Origin: Verrucomicrobiia bacterium
Lineage (GTDB): Bacteria > Verrucomicrobiota > Verrucomicrobiia > Verrucomicrobiales > Akkermansiaceae
DNA: 64,000 bases
Assembly: GCA_030432565.1 (NCBI GenBank)
Contig: JAUIGV010000007.1
Location: 62,001-126,000 of the forward strand
Reading direction: 5' to 3'
Shown here: piece by piece, positions 313 through 10,195 of the stretch
How positions within the stretch are numbered: position 1 is the first letter of the stretch
Layout of the letters: each line of letters opens with the position of its first letter
The notes under the pieces: generated by a model
Told to the model about the DNA's origin: nothing
Databases searched by the model: none
Seen by the model: the letters and a program-made list of their open reading frames with translations, nothing else
Program-made: the position numbers and the translations under genes

Positions 313-3300
313 ATGAGACAATCTCTCTTCGCCCTACTCCTCCTCATATTCCCGCTCCGGGCATCGGAGCGACCCAACGTTCTTCTCATCCTTGCCGACG
401 ATCTGGGATTCTCGGATCTCTCCTGCTACGGAGGAGAAATCCCCACCCCCAACCTCGACCGACTCGCAAACGGAGGAGCCAAGTTCTCTTCCTTCTACAC
501 CAGCGCCCGCTGCTGTCCATCCCGCGCTTCTCTGATGACCGGGATTCACCCGCACCAAGCCGGCATCGGCTCCTTCACCCACGCGAAACAACCTCCCGGT
601 AAAGGGCTCGCTTATAAAGGAGCTCTCCTCCCCTCCTGCGCCACCCTGGCTGAAATACTTCTCGATGAAGGCTACTCCACCTGGATGGTCGGCAAGTGGC
701 ACATGTCGCAACCCGGCCCCATCGGCCGAGGCTTCCAAAACTACTACGGCTACAAAAACTTCCTTGCCCACTCCGAGGATCAATGGACCCCCTCCAATTA
801 TGTGCGCCTCCCCGAATCGATAAAACCCGAACTCCCCGTCAAAAACGACTTCTACGTCACCGACGTCTTCACCGATTACTCCCTCGAATTCCTCAAGCAG
901 GCCCGCGCCCAAAAGGACAAACCATGGTTCCTCTACCTCGCCCACTCCTCGCCTCACTTTCCAATTCAAGCTCCAAAGGAATCCATCGACCGCCATGTGG
1001 AAACCTATCGCAAAGGCTGGGACGTTCTGCGACGCGAGCGCTTTGAACGTCAAAAGAAGCTCGGCCTCACTGACCCCGATGCCAAACTCCCGCCCCTTTC
1101 CGAAGTCCCGGTTGATCGCGAAGACATCGCGAATGGCTTCGCTGGAAAACCAAACCCCTCTTGGGATTCTCTCCCCGCCGACCGCCGCGAAGACCTCGCC
1201 CGCCGCATGGCCACCTTCGCAGCCATGGTCGAGCACGTTGACCAAGGCATCGCTCGTATCCTCGCCGACCTCGAACAAAATGGCGAACTCGACAACACCA
1301 TCATCGCTTTTCTCTCGGACAACGGGGCATGCTACGAATGGGGGCCGTTTGGGTTCGATGGTCGCTCCCGTCTCGGTAAAACCACTCTCCACTCCGGCGA
1401 TCAACTTGCCGCCATGGGACAGTCCGGCACCCATTCATCCTACGGTTCCGGCTGGGCCAATCTTGGCAACACCCCCCTCAGTATGTACAAGCATTTTTGC
1501 CATGAAGGAGGAATCGCTTCGCCTCTCATCCTCCACTGGCCCAATGGAATCGCCAAAAAGGAAGGCTACGTCAAAACACCCTCCCACCTCATGGACATCG
1601 TCCCCACGATCCTTAAAGCCACTGGAGCAAAATATCCCTCGGAACGAAACGGACACAAAATCACTCCCGTTGAAGGAACCTCTCTTCTCCCTGCAATCGA
1701 AAATCCCAGGGCAATTCCCGAACGCGTCCTCGCCTTTGAACATCAGGAAGCCCGTGGTCTTCGCAAAGGAGACTGGAAGCTGGTTTGGGGAAAACGTCAG
1801 CCCGACAAAATCACATGGGAACTTTACAACCTGGCCGAGGACCGCTCCGAACAAACAAACGTCGCTCAGAACTACGCCACCATCAAAGACCAGCTCGTAG
1901 AGGACTGGCACACCTGGGCCAAGCGCGTTCATGCTTCACCGCACCTCATGCCCGAACCTGGTTTCACCAAGAAGAACACCAAACCAGCCTCTCCCCAGAT
2001 TGCCAAACGCCCTCTCACGATCAAAGCGACCGTTCAGGGACAGAAGCTTCATGGTGTCGTCCTCGCCCAGGGAGGCAAAGAACACGGCTACGCTCTTCAC
2101 CTCATGAACGGAACGGCTGCTCTGGACGTCCGCGTCGATGGCAAAATCACCCGAATCACAGCCCCCACCACTCCGCCCGGAAACCTCACACTGGAAGCAA
2201 AGATTCAATCGAACAAGCTGACCCTTACCTTAAACGGTAAAACCGTAGAGGCAAAATCACCGGGACTTATTCCCGTTCAGCCGAAAGACGCACTGTCACT
2301 CGGAGAAGACTCCCTCACAGCTGCCGGAAACTACGACGCACCAAACCCCTTCAACGGAAAAATTATCTCTCATAAAGTGACAAGCGGTAGTCTGAAGCCG
2401 CAGCTTCCGGCCCCTAAAACCATGCTCACGCCTTGGGGCGAAAAAGTCACCCCGCAAAACGCATGGCAGGAATACCCGCGCCCCCAGATGGTCCGCAACA
2501 ACTGGACCAATCTCAACGGCCATTGGAACTACGCCATTACAAAAAAAGACTCCCAAAAACCCGAGAAATGGCAGGGGAAGATTCTCGTCCCCTTCGCCAT
2601 CGAGTCCCAACTCTCAGGCGTGCAAAAACGCATCACCCCAGACGACGCCCTCTGGTATCAACGCACCTTCACCCACAAGTCAAAGGGCGACAACAAGCAC
2701 ACGATCCTCAAATTCGAAGCCATCGACTACCAATCCACCATCTGGATCAACGATGAACAAGTCGGCAACCACACCGGCGGCAACCTCCCCTTCAGCTTCG
2801 ACATCACCAAAGCCCTTAAGCCCGGCCAAAACACCCTCACCGTCAAAGTCCTCGACGCCACCGACTCCGCCTATCAACTCCACGGCAAACAACGCCTCAA
2901 CCCCAAAGGCATCTGGTACACTCCCGTCTCTGGAATCTGGCAAACCGTCTGGCTGGAGAACATTCCAACAACCAGCCTCCAGACACCAAAGATCACCACA
3001 AAAATCAATGGCGAGGTGATCATCGAAGCCCCCGTCACCACTTCGCAGAAACTGGCAGAACTTGCTCATCCTTCTGTCCTCGCCGTGGTCAAAGAGAAAG
3101 GAAAGACGATCGCGAGAGCCAACGTCACCGCAGGTCACCCCATCAAGTTCACCATCGAAAACCCAAAGCTCTGGTCACCTGATTCACCAACCCTCTATGA
3201 CCTGGAACTCACTTGTGGCGAAGACAACATTCAATCCTACTTCGGCATCCGCGAAACCACCGTCGCAAAAGACAAAGACGGCCACCTCCGCCTCCATCTA

Positions 3301-5283
3301 AATGGAAAGCCACTCTTCCACTGGGGCACGCTCGACCAAGGCTGGTGGCCCGATGGCCTCCTCACCCCGCCTTCCGATGCGGCCATGTTTTCAGATATCG
3401 AATTCCTCAAGAATGCCGGCTTCAACACCATCCGCAAACACATTAAAGTCGAACCCCGCCGATACTACGCCCACTGCGATCGCATCGGCATGCTCGTTTG
3501 GCAGGACCAGGTCAGCGCCAAAAGAGGCGACGACCCGCCTTGGCCACGACTCGCCCCCAATCCCCCCGAGGCGATCTGGCCCGACCACGCTCACGAGCAA
3601 TTCATGGCCGAACACAAAGCCATGATCGACACTTTGCACAACCACCCCTCGATCGTGCAATGGGTTCCTTTCAACGAACGATGGGGACAACATCGCACCA
3701 TGAGCGTGGGTAAATGGGCCACCAACTACGACCCCACCCGGCAGATCAACATCGCTTCCGGCGGCAACTTTTTTCCCACAGGTCACATCGTCGACCACCA
3801 CCAATATCCACATCCCGGCTTCCCCTTCGAACTTGGGAAAGGCGGCCGCTTTGACAACTACGTCAAAGTCGTCGGCGAATTCGGCGGCCATGGCTTTCCG
3901 GTCGAAGATCACCTCTGGAATCCCGACGCCCGCAATTGGGGCTACGGCGGGCTGCCTCAAAACAAAGAGGAATGGACCCAACGCTACCAAGCGTCGATTG
4001 AGAAGCTTGTTGAACTCCGCAATGAAGGCATCGCCGCCGGCATCTACACCCAAACCACCGACGTCGAAGGCGAAATCAACGGGCTCATCACCTACGACCG
4101 CCGCGTTCAAAAATTAGCGCCGGCCACCCTTCGCAAAATCCACGAAGACTCCGGCCTCATTGCAAAAAAGAAAAACTCCGAAACCGCCGGCATGGGCCCC
4201 GTCACCGTCCCAAAAGCAGAAATCGCCCCCGTCCGCCCCGTCGATTCTCCCGAGATGATCGCCGCCGGACTCAAATCCCACGACCGCGCCCTCTTCATTA
4301 GAAACGACTGGATCCGCGATCCCTACATCACACTCGGCCCCGATGACTTCTACTACCTCACCGGAACCACCATCAATGCCGACGACCCCCGCGAGGAGAC
4401 CGATCCCTACAATATCGGCCTCGGCGACATCTCCGCAGTCGGCACCACCGTCCGCGTTTGGAAGTCCAAAGACCTCACCGAATGGCAGGACCTCGGCCCC
4501 ATTTTCACCCTCCAGGACAGCGTCCACCAAAACCCCGGTAACCGCATCTGGGCCCCCGAAGTCCACTGGATTCCCGAAAAGAAGCGCTGGGCCCTCGTCC
4601 ACTGCCCTAAACAGAAATCCAACTTCGCCCTCTCCTCCGGCCCCACTCTCAAAGGCCCCTGGACGCACCCCATGGGCGCCGACTCACGAGGGAAACACGA
4701 CCCTTCCCTCTACAAGTCCGGCGACACTTGGTGGATGCTCTCCGAAAACACAAACGTCCAACCTCTCGCCGCCGACTTCACAAGATTCACCGACAAAGCG
4801 ATCCATATCGCCCCCTCATCAACCCGCCCCGGTCCCGATGGCAACCCTATCAGCCGGATCGGCCATGAAGGGGCCACTATGATAAAAGTTGGTAACAAAT
4901 ACGTTCACCTCGGCACCGCCTGGTCCACCGATAAGATGCGCACCGGCTCCTACAATCTCTACTACTCGACCGCCGAAAACATCACCGGCCCTTACGGTCC
5001 CCGCAAGTTCGCCGGACGCTTCCTCGGTCACGGGACACCGTTCCAAACCCGTGACGGCAAGTGGTGGTGCACCGCATTCTTCAACGCCAATGTCCCGCCA
5101 CTTGCAACCGGAGGAATCCAAGATCGAGATCTTTCCGAAACAGCCCAGACCATTAACCATCGTGGGACAACTATTGTTCCGCTTGATGTAAGGATCCTCG
5201 CTAACGGGGAAGTTTACATTCGGGCAAAGGACCCGAGCTACTCCTCTCCCGGGCCGGACGAAGCCCAGAAGAGCTTTGAGTAG
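313..5283 (+). CDS. Secreted trifunctional enzyme: sulfatase - GH2 - GH43-like fusion
   Basis: A 1656-residue exported protein with a short signal peptide (hydrophobic residues 5-15). Residues ~20-540 are a type I sulfatase: metal-site DD near 29-30 and signature CCPSRASLMTG with the formylglycine Cys at 67, GKWH, and a later HxPH-type region. Residues ~570-690 look like a LamG/concanavalin-type beta-sandwich. Residues ~705-1290 are glycoside hydrolase family 2: N-terminal jelly roll, immunoglobulin-like domain, then a TIM barrel with FNER (acid/base E1122) and GEFGG (candidate nucleophile E1189). Residues ~1325-1650 resemble a GH43 five-bladed propeller with RDP (D1336), HDP (D1463) and GHEG (E1519) as the candidate acid triad. 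All three active sites look complete. The probable substrate is a sulfated polysaccharide, desulfated and trimmed from the non-reducing end; sugar specificity cannot be read from sequence. The architecture is unusual, and the frame is uninterrupted. Confidence 0.9.
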   Translation: MRQSLFALLLLIFPLRASERPNVLLILADDLGFSDLSCYGGEIPTPNLDRLANGGAKFSSFYTSARCCPSRASLMTGIHPHQAGIGSFTHAKQPPGKGLAYKGALLPSCATLAEILLDEGYSTWMVGKWHMSQPGPIGRGFQNYYGYKNFLAHSEDQWTPSNYVRLPESIKPELPVKNDFYVTDVFTDYSLEFLKQARAQKDKPWFLYLAHSSPHFPIQAPKESIDRHVETYRKGWDVLRRERFERQKKLGLTDPDAKLPPLSEVPVDREDIANGFAGKPNPSWDSLPADRREDLARRMATFAAMVEHVDQGIARILADLEQNGELDNTIIAFLSDNGACYEWGPFGFDGRSRLGKTTLHSGDQLAAMGQSGTHSSYGSGWANLGNTPLSMYKHFCHEGGIASPLILHWPNGIAKKEGYVKTPSHLMDIVPTILKATGAKYPSERNGHKITPVEGTSLLPAIENPRAIPERVLAFEHQEARGLRKGDWKLVWGKRQPDKITWELYNLAEDRSEQTNVAQNYATIKDQLVEDWHTWAKRVHASPHLMPEPGFTKKNTKPASPQIAKRPLTIKATVQGQKLHGVVLAQGGKEHGYALHLMNGTAALDVRVDGKITRITAPTTPPGNLTLEAKIQSNKLTLTLNGKTVEAKSPGLIPVQPKDALSLGEDSLTAAGNYDAPNPFNGKIISHKVTSGSLKPQLPAPKTMLTPWGEKVTPQNAWQEYPRPQMVRNNWTNLNGHWNYAITKKDSQKPEKWQGKILVPFAIESQLSGVQKRITPDDALWYQRTFTHKSKGDNKHTILKFEAIDYQSTIWINDEQVGNHTGGNLPFSFDITKALKPGQNTLTVKVLDATDSAYQLHGKQRLNPKGIWYTPVSGIWQTVWLENIPTTSLQTPKITTKINGEVIIEAPVTTSQKLAELAHPSVLAVVKEKGKTIARANVTAGHPIKFTIENPKLWSPDSPTLYDLELTCGEDNIQSYFGIRETTVAKDKDGHLRLHLNGKPLFHWGTLDQGWWPDGLLTPPSDAAMFSDIEFLKNAGFNTIRKHIKVEPRRYYAHCDRIGMLVWQDQVSAKRGDDPPWPRLAPNPPEAIWPDHAHEQFMAEHKAMIDTLHNHPSIVQWVPFNERWGQHRTMSVGKWATNYDPTRQINIASGGNFFPTGHIVDHHQYPHPGFPFELGKGGRFDNYVKVVGEFGGHGFPVEDHLWNPDARNWGYGGLPQNKEEWTQRYQASIEKLVELRNEGIAAGIYTQTTDVEGEINGLITYDRRVQKLAPATLRKIHEDSGLIAKKKNSETAGMGPVTVPKAEIAPVRPVDSPEMIAAGLKSHDRALFIRNDWIRDPYITLGPDDFYYLTGTTINADDPREETDPYNIGLGDISAVGTTVRVWKSKDLTEWQDLGPIFTLQDSVHQNPGNRIWAPEVHWIPEKKRWALVHCPKQKSNFALSSGPTLKGPWTHPMGADSRGKHDPSLYKSGDTWWMLSENTNVQPLAADFTRFTDKAIHIAPSSTRPGPDGNPISRIGHEGATMIKVGNKYVHLGTAWSTDKMRTGSYNLYYSTAENITGPYGPRKFAGRFLGHGTPFQTRDGKWWCTAFFNANVPPLATGGIQDRDLSETAQTINHRGTTIVPLDVRILANGEVYIRAKDPSYSSPGPDEAQKSFE

Positions 5284-8541: not shown

Positions 8542-9276
8542 ATGCTCTTGCGCCGCAATCTCATTCTATCCCTTTTCTCTCTTTACCTCGGAGTTTCGGC
8601 TTCCGCCGAACCCGCCGAAAAAATCCTGTTTATCGGGAATAGCTACACAGGTGGCGTTCGTAAAATGGTGACCGAGTTGGTGCAGCAATCCCCCCACGCC
8701 AACGCTCAGATTTCGTTTATCAACCCCGGCGGAAAAACACTCGAGTTTCATCTTAAAAACAAGGCAACTGTTGAAAAAATCGAGACTGGAAAGTTTGATA
8801 TCGTTGTCCTGCAGGACCAGAGCCAATTTCCGGCCGTCTTCCCGGATCGCTTTCAAAAGGCCGCAGTGGCATTGCATAAAATCATCAAAAGATCAGGAGC
8901 CACAACCGTCTTCTACGAAACCTGGGGCAGACGGGATGGCGACAAAATGAACAAGAAACTCTTCCCGAATTTTGAATCCATGCAAAAGGCCCTGAGCAAG
9001 AGCTATCAATCGACGGCAAAAAAATGCAGGGCAAACCTGGCTCCGGTTGGCTCCACATGGAGCACCGTGAGAGAAAAGAATCCCAAACTGGGAAGGGAGC
9101 TCTACCGTGGAGACGGTAGTCACCCCTCGCCAAAAGGTTCCTACCTCGCGGCGTGCGTTTTTTACGCCACTCTTTTCGACAAAGACCCTCGGAAACTGAA
9201 ATTCACGGGCGGTCTGCCGGAAGAGGAAGCCAAACTCATCAGAGAGGTGGCCTATTCTACCGTGACAAACGCGTGA
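8542..9276 (+). CDS. Secreted SGNH/GDSL-type hydrolase
   Basis: A 244-residue protein with a signal peptide (residues 1-22, cleavage near ASAEP). Block I is IGNSYTGG (catalytic Ser and oxyanion Gly), a central VVLQDQSQ corresponds to the block II-III region, and DGSHPSPKGSY near residue 195 supplies the Asp-x-x-His pair of block V. The fold resembles the DUF4886/SGNH group in the Bacteroidetes and PVC bacteria. The likely role is esterase action on an acylated glycan, given the sulfatase and dehydrogenase neighbours (inference). Its 3' end overlaps the convergent selenoprotein gene by 20 bases. It is divergent from the cytochrome gene across a 149-base intergenic region in which I see no convincing promoter. 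Confidence 0.85.
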   Translation: MLLRRNLILSLFSLYLGVSASAEPAEKILFIGNSYTGGVRKMVTELVQQSPHANAQISFINPGGKTLEFHLKNKATVEKIETGKFDIVVLQDQSQFPAVFPDRFQKAAVALHKIIKRSGATTVFYETWGRRDGDKMNKKLFPNFESMQKALSKSYQSTAKKCRANLAPVGSTWSTVREKNPKLGRELYRGDGSHPSPKGSYLAACVFYATLFDKDPRKLKFTGGLPEEEAKLIREVAYSTVTNA

Positions 9277-10195
9277 TATTCACCCGGAAAAGAAATGGGC
9301 CGCCACTAGAGGCAGGAGCGACAAAAACGACCTCTTCGGTTCCCGAACCATCATAAGTCCCGGTCTTCCGGGAAAGAGTAAACAGGTCACCCACGTTTTC
9401 CCAGTCCTCACCATTGCCGCTTCGCTGAATCTCATAATTCAAACCGCCCGCCTCTCCCAAACGCCGGCGAAATCTCAGCGAAAACAGATCATCATTTTCA
9501 ATCGTCACGAATTCTGCAGCCAGCCGGGCAAGGTCCTCCGGTGAATCCGGTTTTGACCCAAGGGCATACTCAAAAAAATTGCTCCCCTCATCAAGATCAG
9601 GATCATCAGCATCCCCACTTGCCAAATCTCCAAAAAACCGTTCCTCCCAATCATCACCTATTCCATCATCGTCCGAATCAACAAACCGGGCCGCATCGCG
9701 CAATCGCTTTTTCAGCAGTTCGCGTGTTGCCGCACTGGAAAGATCATTGGCAGTCAAATTGAAGGGGGGATTGATGGGACGATTTAAAGAATCCAGGATA
9801 ACAACATCACGATAGGTCACACCCCAGAGACGTCGGACGTTCGATTCAAGGGTGTCTTGCAGCCAGGGAATGTTCCTATCTGCCGTCGTCAAACTGTTTC
9901 CGGCTTCATTACTGAGGTTCCAGTTGATCCCCATAATCTCAATTGGATATCCGGTCGCCTCGGTTCGAAGTTCCGAATAGATTTGTTGCAGGAAGCCAAA
10001 CTGGCTCCGGCAGTATCCTCAGGTCGAATCGCCAAAATAATAGGCGGTTACTTGATGGAGATAATCCCTGGGTGACACCAACTCTCGGGAACGCGGAGAG
10101 GTCTCGTTCGCATCAACCAAGCGAAAATCCGGAACCGGTTCCCCTGCAGCCAAAGACGCCAACAGACAAAAAATAGAAATCGTTCGACCTATCAT
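9257..10195 (-). CDS. Candidate exported selenoprotein: thioredoxin-fold UxxC protein with C-terminal TSP3-like/sorting module
   Basis: Read through one in-frame TGA (10019-10021), the gene encodes 312 residues. Residues 1-18 are a signal peptide starting at the ATG at 10195; an ATG at 10213 is possible but lengthens it needlessly. Residues ~20-165 read as a thioredoxin/peroxiredoxin fold: PDFRLVD, a VSPRDYL segment, strand AYYFGDST, then U59-G-Y-C62 starting the helix, GINWNLSN, a conserved-looking IPWLQDT, and YRDVVILD. The stop therefore falls exactly at the first redox position of a CxxC-like motif, and coding character continues in frame for another 250 residues. Residues ~172-200 are acidic DSDDDGIGDD calcium-type repeats, and the tail resembles the C-terminal modules of three other exported proteins here. 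The UxxC plus YRDVVILD layout recalls selenoprotein P N-terminal or AhpC/TSA-like domains, but the subfamily is not certain. A conventional annotation would split or call it a pseudogene. Confidence 0.8.
9987..10012 (-). promoter_or_regulatory. Bacterial SECIS-like hairpin downstream of UGA
   Basis: Numbering from the base after UGA, nucleotides 7-32 fold as UGC / GG / AGCC paired with GGCU / CC / GCA, with a C-U mismatch and one bulged U, closing a loop AGUUU (or GUU if A17-U21 pairs). The loop G is 18 nt after UGA. That agrees with the described bacterial SECIS pattern: hairpin immediately 3' of UGA, apical loop ~16-37 nt away, and a G within the first two loop bases. The bulged U is on the 3' arm, whereas in E. 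coli fdhF it is on the 5' arm. I folded it by eye only. Confidence 0.6.
10019..10021 (-). other. In-frame UGA, proposed selenocysteine codon (Sec59)
   Basis: The TGA interrupts an otherwise continuous reading frame at the residue expected to be the attacking thiol of a thioredoxin-fold CxxC motif (T-U-G-Y-C). No frameshift is needed to join the two halves, and the protein on both sides fits one fold. A random nonsense mutation would be unlikely to hit precisely this codon. Confidence 0.75.

Follow-up and report, generated by a model that had tools for sequence, protein, structure and literature searches.

A gene that ordinary annotation breaks at an in-frame TGA is almost certainly intact and working in the Verrucomicrobiia bacterium studied here and, judged from the sequences of the gene and its homologues, the apparent stop codon, codon 59, almost certainly encodes selenocysteine (Sec) at a redox active site. 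The gene lies on contig JAUIGV010000007.1 in the window, by which we mean the whole 64,000-nucleotide stretch analysed. We put a probability of about 0.93 on the joint reading that the gene is intact and that SelB, guided by an RNA hairpin, inserts Sec59 into a probably exported redox protein of the TlpA/ResA/DsbE type, likely a thiol/selenol oxidoreductase. The frame, the Sec machinery, the exchange of UGA and Cys among homologues, the covarying hairpin and the fold class were all computed.

Translation of positions 9257–10195 on the reverse strand gave one 312-residue frame that ends in TAG and holds a single in-frame TGA, as the first-pass annotation had described. The TGA, at 10021–10019, is codon 59 within the motif S-T-U-G-Y-C-R, and Cys62 (10010–10012), the last residue of the UxxC site, is probably the resolving cysteine. 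When open reading frames of at least 80 aa were listed, only 9257–9934 was recovered from the selenoprotein gene, a 225-aa frame starting at Met88, and the redox motif was therefore lost from the standard ORF. The genome that contains the window amounts to 5.9 Mb in 82 contigs. The UGA is kept in L084, a copy whose thioredoxin (Trx) domain is 96% identical to that of the window protein. Between these two copies pN/pS was 0.12 in the Trx part after the UGA (8 synonymous and 3 non-synonymous changes), 0.34 before the UGA (4 and 4 changes) and 0.22 in the C-terminal module (7 and 5 changes), with few changes behind each of the three values; against the L086 copy it was 0.17 after the UGA (57 synonymous and 32 non-synonymous changes). 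The values of 0.12–0.17 show that the downstream frame is under purifying selection, and the coding signal after the UGA, which was checked for decay, is intact.

With NCBIfam release 20.0 (June 2026), the window protein matched NF053656, named “TUGYCR motif thioredoxin fold (seleno)protein” (redoxin_TUGYCR), at 175.8 bits (cut-off 100) over profile positions 1–146 of 146, and among Pfam families it resembled AhpC-TSA alone, at a sub-threshold 15.8 bits. On all the evidence we judge the gene to encode a real selenoprotein, an added member of a family that exists as a database model and is barely described. No paper on the TUGYCR family was found in the literature searched, which included the accessible parts of PMC13188914, PMC9312934 and PMC4807772 (the last without its supplementary selenoprotein table), and the string “TUGYCR” was absent from that literature. 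The accessible part of PMC13188914, a 2026 inventory of prokaryotic selenoproteins, contains none of “NF053”, “TUGYC” and “PF04592”; it lists generic UxxC families such as “Redoxin family protein” PF08534, known here by their description.

The family was searched for in samples of genomes, in several of which only the best candidates were scored. NF053656 passed its cut-off in 1 of 387 genomes in a sample of the window's phylum (the window's own genome), in 7/260 genomes of the window's taxonomic family, in 15/294 of the phylum of genome G611 (Planctomycetota; the L090 copy is from a Phycisphaerae bacterium), in 42/273 of the phylum of G610 (loci assigned to Deltaproteobacteria or Proteobacteria) and in 2/287 of the phylum of G613. 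Exactly one in-frame TGA was present in 70 of the 80 matches over the cut-off from four of these searches, namely 7/7 in the window's family, 16/19 in the G611 phylum, 45/52 in the G610 phylum (where all 52 matches over the cut-off and 18 below it were taken in) and 2/2 in the G613 phylum; the other ten comprised six Cys forms, two Ser forms, one Ala form and one partial match. Searches of viral contigs and of plasmids for the family found nothing. One candidate, L094, was rejected as an ordinary WCGPC TlpA-type protein.

To compare the residue at codon 59 across homologues, 117 domain hits were aligned and filtered: distinct DNA contexts that scored 40 bits or more and carried U or C at this column were kept, and duplicates of a context, lower-scoring rows and those showing Ser, Ala or a gap there were dropped. 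The resulting 97 contexts consisted of 83 with UGA, at one shared codon in at least three phyla, and 14 with Cys, and Cys62 was Cys in all of both groups. Gln65 was present in 82/83 UGA and 11/14 Cys contexts. On a 95-row tree (midpoint root, bootstrap not fully settled) the Sec/Cys label needed seven changes, of which at least four were forced by well-supported branches. The few copies with Ser or Ala at the Sec column looked inactive. The Ser forms come from L130/L131 (the same as L145/L146), in which two redoxin domains are fused: the first, with the Ser, has lost the Sec, the resolving Cys (replaced by Ala) and the conserved Arg, and the second retains U-G-Y-C. The homologues thus carry at this position the UGA or Cys that had been looked for, with the Ser and Ala copies as rare exceptions.

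An AlphaFold2 model built from 11 sequences is a thioredoxin fold, as had been read from the sequence at first, with a mean pLDDT of 77.8 and values of 82–96 per ten-residue block over residues 21–170. The best match in the PDB was Chlorobium DsbE (3gl3; Foldseek E 5.5e-9, Z 17.2, rmsd 2.0 over 134 residues), ResA matched with Z 17.1, and a PDB sequence search with the single window protein gave a best E of 0.06. By structure (Z about 17), the domain of residues 21–168 (9692–10135), which is the part matched by NF053656, belongs to the DsbE/ResA class. In an alignment with a TlpA-type protein, Sec59 falls on the first Cys of C-x-x-C; the UGA occupies the first redox position, U59-G-Y-C62, to which it had been assigned. 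At the place where this TlpA-type row reads I-P-T-T-F, the family mostly has Y/W-R-D-V, and the corresponding stretch of the window protein, G-V-T-Y-R-D-V-V-I-L-D, is without proline. Judged from this alignment, the cis-proline facing the active site is absent and Arg129 stands at its column, followed by Asp130 (9806–9811); Among 80 UGA rows, 67 have Arg at the proline column and 79 have Asp at the next residue.

Peroxiredoxins have an Arg close to their catalytic residue. The Arg at the cis-proline column, the weak resemblance to AhpC-TSA (15.8 bits for the window protein and 30.7 bits, over the cut-off of 26, for L091) and the occurrence of Bcp and AhpC among the structure matches would all fit a selenoprotein that works as a surface peroxidase, peroxiredoxin or GPx-like, rather than as a disulfide oxidoreductase. 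We regard this as possible and rather unlikely, because the motif is UxxC and not the peroxiredoxin TxxC/U, the best-ranked structures are of the DsbE/ResA/TlpA class, and 14 of 14 Cys forms retain CxxC. By analogy with that structural class, thiol/selenol oxidoreductase activity is most likely.

The genome encodes the means to read UGA as Sec: selA, selB, selC and selD, by which the proposal was to be checked, are all present. The tRNA-Sec gene selC scored 54.4 bits, over the Rfam cut-off, and ARAGORN called it SeC with anticodon UCA; selB, which was searched for in the window's genome only, scored 315.6 bits (cut-off 242.25), selA 489 bits and selD 386.7 bits. The selD gene is itself interrupted by a single in-frame TGA, which stands at the classical U-x-x-K position (C-G-G-U-A-S-K) and shows independently that UGA serves as a Sec codon in genes of this organism. 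In 14 genomes with a member of the TUGYCR family, selA was present in all and selD in 13, the exception being G586. With 117 of 714–1196 candidates scored in each genome, tRNA-Sec was found in nine of the 14 and was not found in the draft genomes G544, G577, G586, G587 and G610, a blemish that counts against the selenoprotein reading. Nine of nine genus members without the family, picked from 20 listed, also had tRNA-Sec. The gene region of L080, from G586, which is of the same genus as the window's genome, is identical to that of L085.

Shortly after the UGA lies a bacterial SECIS-like hairpin (9992–10008, reverse strand) with the stem GGAGCC/GGCUUC and the loop AGUUU. Counting the T of TGA as 0, positions 13–18 pair with positions 29–24 around a five-base loop, and the gene in the window has the complete set of six pairs, including one G-U. 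A 71-nt segment spanning the UGA folded at −19.1 kcal/mol, compared with −13.8 ± 2.6 for shuffles (z −2.05), and 6 of 200 shuffles folded as well. Across homologues, the 72 UGA contexts of at least 100 bits had a mean of 5.71 of 6 pairs, compared with 4.25 ± 0.11 when codons were redrawn synonymously (500 redraws, highest mean 4.56), and 62 of them had the full six. The 11 weaker UGA contexts had 5.00 pairs (3.53 ± 0.22 redrawn). The 14 Cys contexts had no excess (2.07 pairs; 2.21 ± 0.17 redrawn) and one of them reached five pairs; kinship of rows inflates all these hairpin counts, and the Cys rows, being fewer and mostly more distant, are an imperfect control. When the pairing partner was slid by 1–4 bases, the mean over all 83 UGA contexts fell from 5.61 to 1.60–3.63 pairs.

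In an 11-row alignment, 97% of cells were paired, covariation was 0.473 compared with 0.231 in shuffled alignments (0/500 as high), and eight cells were changed on both sides (0/500 shuffles as high). The number of pairs changed on both sides (3; 144/500) and the number of pair types (7; 55/500) in this alignment did not go beyond shuffles. More than one standard pair type occurred at five of the six pairs in the 83 UGA contexts. Fewer than five pairs formed at the fixed place in eight of these contexts (L128, L132, L134, L143, L192, L211, L212 and L213); in single-sequence folds, some of the eight had another hairpin nearby. The second loop base was G in 82/83 UGA and 9/14 Cys contexts. Gly67, whose codon lies in the 3' arm of the stem, was kept in 75/83 UGA but 1/14 Cys contexts, and part of the protein motif thus seems to be kept for the RNA. 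A fold predicted after the UGA of selD in the window's genome had two hairpins, the second with an AGUUU loop and further from the UGA. A search of Rfam around the hairpin (E up to 5) gave no family, with six snoRNA-type matches far below their cut-offs. The hairpin expected just downstream of the UGA was thus located at +13 to +29, with a pairing excess specific to UGA and with covariation. With its covariation, the lack of an excess in Cys homologues and the RNA-linked glycine, the hairpin offers a clean case in which to study how a SECIS evolves inside a coding sequence.

One could suppose that the UGA is read as Cys or Trp, or that it is a regulated stop with a functional 58-residue product, since Cys does replace UGA in some homologues. 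We consider this very improbable: the genome has the full Sec machinery and a classical Sec-type selD, genus relatives (the L085 and L086 copies) apparently end the same gene with an ordinary TGA stop, and the excess of hairpin pairing goes with the UGA form. That the TGA arose by mutation, or by an error of sequencing, in a Cys gene that is either decaying or intact, as the splitting of the gene by standard ORF finding and the origin of related records from metagenome-assembled genomes might suggest, is more improbable still, given a TGA at the same codon in 83 contexts of at least three phyla, pN/pS of 0.12–0.17 after it and covariation in the stem. The Sec machinery, the UGA/Cys homologues and the undecayed frame all favour the initial view of an intact selenoprotein gene that ordinary annotation breaks. 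The gene shows how the rule by which a stop codon is read hides a widespread, probably extracytoplasmic redox protein, present in 42 of 273 genomes of one sampled phylum.

The window protein is probably exported. Its residues 1–18 (10142–10195) form a probable signal peptide without a lipobox, recognized as a hydrophobic stretch by eye, and residues 1–17 had pLDDT below 50 in the model; the initial description as an exported protein is thus likely, resting on this signal-like sequence. In 53 of 66 distinct non-verrucomicrobial contexts (at least 100 bits, U or C), a lipobox-like pattern followed the hydrophobic stretch, as counted with a simple pattern and with incomplete copies at contig ends included, and a spacer rich in Asp, Ser or Gly often came next. 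In hosts outside the Verrucomicrobia the protein is thus probably a lipoprotein for the most part. None of seven verrucomicrobial contexts had the pattern. L090 has a C-terminal PEP-CTERM sorting domain (23.8 bits, cut-off 16). L091 runs on into a region that, by eye, resembles dockerin repeats. The same Sec redox domain thus seems to be brought out of the cytoplasm in ways that differ between lineages, and this variety of likely anchors points to an extracytoplasmic role.

In the window protein, residues 169–312 (9260–9691) form a C-terminal module composed of a D-x-D-x-D-G stretch and a beta-rich domain, and verrucomicrobial copies of sufficient length have a stretch of this type and a beta-rich domain as well. 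When the best 5 of 55 candidates in the window's genome were scored, the module was found at the extreme C-terminus of 4/4 other matching proteins, with frames of 981–1508 residues. Given this place and the D-x-D-x-D-G stretch, it is plausible that the module is a calcium/sorting device. NCBIfam had no family for the module, and, modelled alone, it gave a low-confidence structure (pLDDT 69.6) with weak, mostly MHC-type matches (TM-score below 0.4), which we set aside. At first, no described bacterial family was known to combine this fold with such a module; the redoxin domain proved to be that of NF053656, and the fusion to the module is lineage-specific in our sample.

The export route, catalysis, substrate class and role of the Arg/Asp pair are what we infer in the following scheme. 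SelB, guided by the hairpin at UGA +13 to +29, would insert Sec at codon 59 and thereby create the active site Sec59-Gly-Tyr-Cys62 on a TlpA/ResA/DsbE-type thioredoxin fold. The secreted product would be retained at the surface or elsewhere beyond the inner membrane, here perhaps via the C-terminal module. Sec59 would attack an oxidised substrate, which may be a disulfide, a peroxide or an oxidised thiol, Cys62 would resolve the intermediate by forming a selenenylsulfide, and the enzyme would be reset by a thiol donor in the periplasm. Arg129-Asp130, with the Arg beside the active site, may tune the selenolate and the choice of substrate.

The gene is flanked by genes for DUF4886, cytochrome c, DUF7133/GSDH and aldo/keto reductase proteins. 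The L082 copy is followed by a cytochrome c gene, and some 1.2 kb from the L086 copy the opposite strand encodes a protein with DUF7133, ThuA and cytochrome c domains. Scanned neighbours of the L085, L088, L089, L092 and L093 copies were other or unnamed proteins (ten proteins scanned), and those of L091 had no match. We dropped the cytochrome c/DUF7133 neighbourhood as a basis for function, as it is thin evidence: among the copies looked at, it occurs near the window/L084, L082 and L086 copies only. A scan for sigma-70 promoters found none.

The matches below the NF053656 cut-off include a sister clade of 11 Sec and 4 Cys rows (support 99/95), whose Sec rows scored 46–82 bits to NF053656. Its motifs are mostly W- or S-U-[GSP]-[YF]-C and K-D-D, as against T-U-G-Y-C and Y-R-D in TUGYCR. 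Six of seven sister members (L188, L190, L191, L196, L199 and L143, and not L195) matched SelP_N (PF04592) over its gathering score of 23.2, at 31.7–51.3 bits, and in a second scan six of six did so. SelP_N was the best Pfam family for the members that matched it; the same six also passed AhpC-TSA and some passed Redoxin or Thioredoxin, nearly as strongly in L188 and L143. None of eight TUGYCR members matched SelP_N, and the window protein had no match to it at E up to 1. The NCBIfam model nearest to the six sister Sec rows scanned was NF053656. TUGYCR and sister profiles aligned over 146 columns at E 9e-34; a group of four distant Cys rows reached 1.6e-24 and generic thioredoxins (27 rows) 2.4e-14 over 105 columns; as these are small home-made profiles with an inflated E scale, we used the order alone. 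A branch with support 99/82 (midpoint root) unites TUGYCR and the sister clade against the four distant Cys rows and a TlpA, and the columns of U59, C62, Q65, G67, L69, N91, Q113 and D130 are common to 14 rows of the two clades. PDB searches with sister profiles, with or without TUGYCR rows, returned thioredoxins, PDIs and TlpA/ResA types and no selenoprotein P.

Two steps were computed, from TUGYCR to the sister clade and from the sister clade to SelP_N. We give even odds to the idea of a single superfamily of exported Sec redox domains that takes in TUGYCR, the bacterial SelP_N-like proteins and the N-terminal redox domain of animal selenoprotein P; its marks would be U-x-x-C-x-x-Q and, in the place of the cis-proline of thioredoxins, Arg-Asp or Asp-Asp. 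If so, the redox domain of selenoprotein P has a large bacterial counterpart, lipid-tethered or surface-fused, and the reaction of that domain would become open to study in bacteria; by its closeness to SelP_N-like proteins the family offers a possible bacterial route to this chemistry. To the database model, the present analysis adds the Cys forms, evidence for the hairpin, the unusual Arg-Asp site, a variety of likely anchors and the closeness just described.

Bacterial SelP_N-like selenoproteins as such are not new, since the accessible part of the GOS survey (PMC2398784) reports a family named “Prx-like 2” that contains Sec and is similar to pfam04592 at a low level; those selenoproteins have UxxC like the window protein, a likeness drawn from their description only. 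With NF053656, most members of which have Sec in T-U-[GS]-Y-C, the window domain shares a full-length match, and the C-terminal module falls outside the model, which covers the redoxin domain only. Peroxiredoxins (AhpC-TSA) differ in that the window protein is below the gathering score of 26 (15.8 bits) and has T-U-G-Y-C without PxxxTxxC/U. TlpA, ResA and DsbE (CcmG) are alike in the thioredoxin fold and are the best structural class, with 14–19% identity to the top structure matches; Sec59 aligns with the first Cys of their C-x-x-C and Cys62 with the second, whereas the window protein has Sec for the first Cys, no preceding Trp and an Arg at the cis-proline column.

The selenoprotein gene is convergent with a DUF4886 gene (window 8542–9276, plus strand), and the 3' ends of the two genes overlap by 20 bases. 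DUF7133/GSDH and cytochrome c genes lie past the DUF4886 gene in the window, and cytochrome c or DUF7133 genes were also seen near two other copies of the selenoprotein gene (L082 and L086). Elsewhere in the window, a 1656-residue frame (313–5283, plus strand), judged by eye, looks like a sulfatase with glycoside-hydrolase-like parts after it, a combination that would be an unusual fusion.

The C-terminal module of the window protein had no match in NCBIfam and none over the cut-off in Pfam. When 5 of 55 candidates from the window's genome were scored, four large proteins (L223–L226) were found to end in this module, and its C-terminal position in them suggests a role in anchoring or sorting.

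In the window's genome, selD (L232, G000:C73:16415-17344) is itself a selenoprotein gene. Two hairpins are predicted downstream of its UGA, and the loop of one of them is AGUUU, as in the hairpin of our selenoprotein gene. Both selA and the UGA gene are present in five further genomes (G544, G577, G586, G587 and G610), in each of which no tRNA-Sec was found among the 117 candidates scored of 714–1196; gaps in the drafts, unscored candidates or divergent tRNAs may account for this.

Two redoxin domains are fused in one protein at the Planctomycetota loci L130 and L131 (also numbered L145 and L146). The first domain, with S-[IL]-Y-A, has lost Sec, Cys and the conserved Arg, and the second retains U-G-Y-C.

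The sister clade redoxins (L188, L190–L194, L196–L199 and L143), mostly with Sec, carry K-D-D at the cis-proline region, and all seven of those scanned matched SelP_N, the N-terminal domain of animal selenoprotein P.
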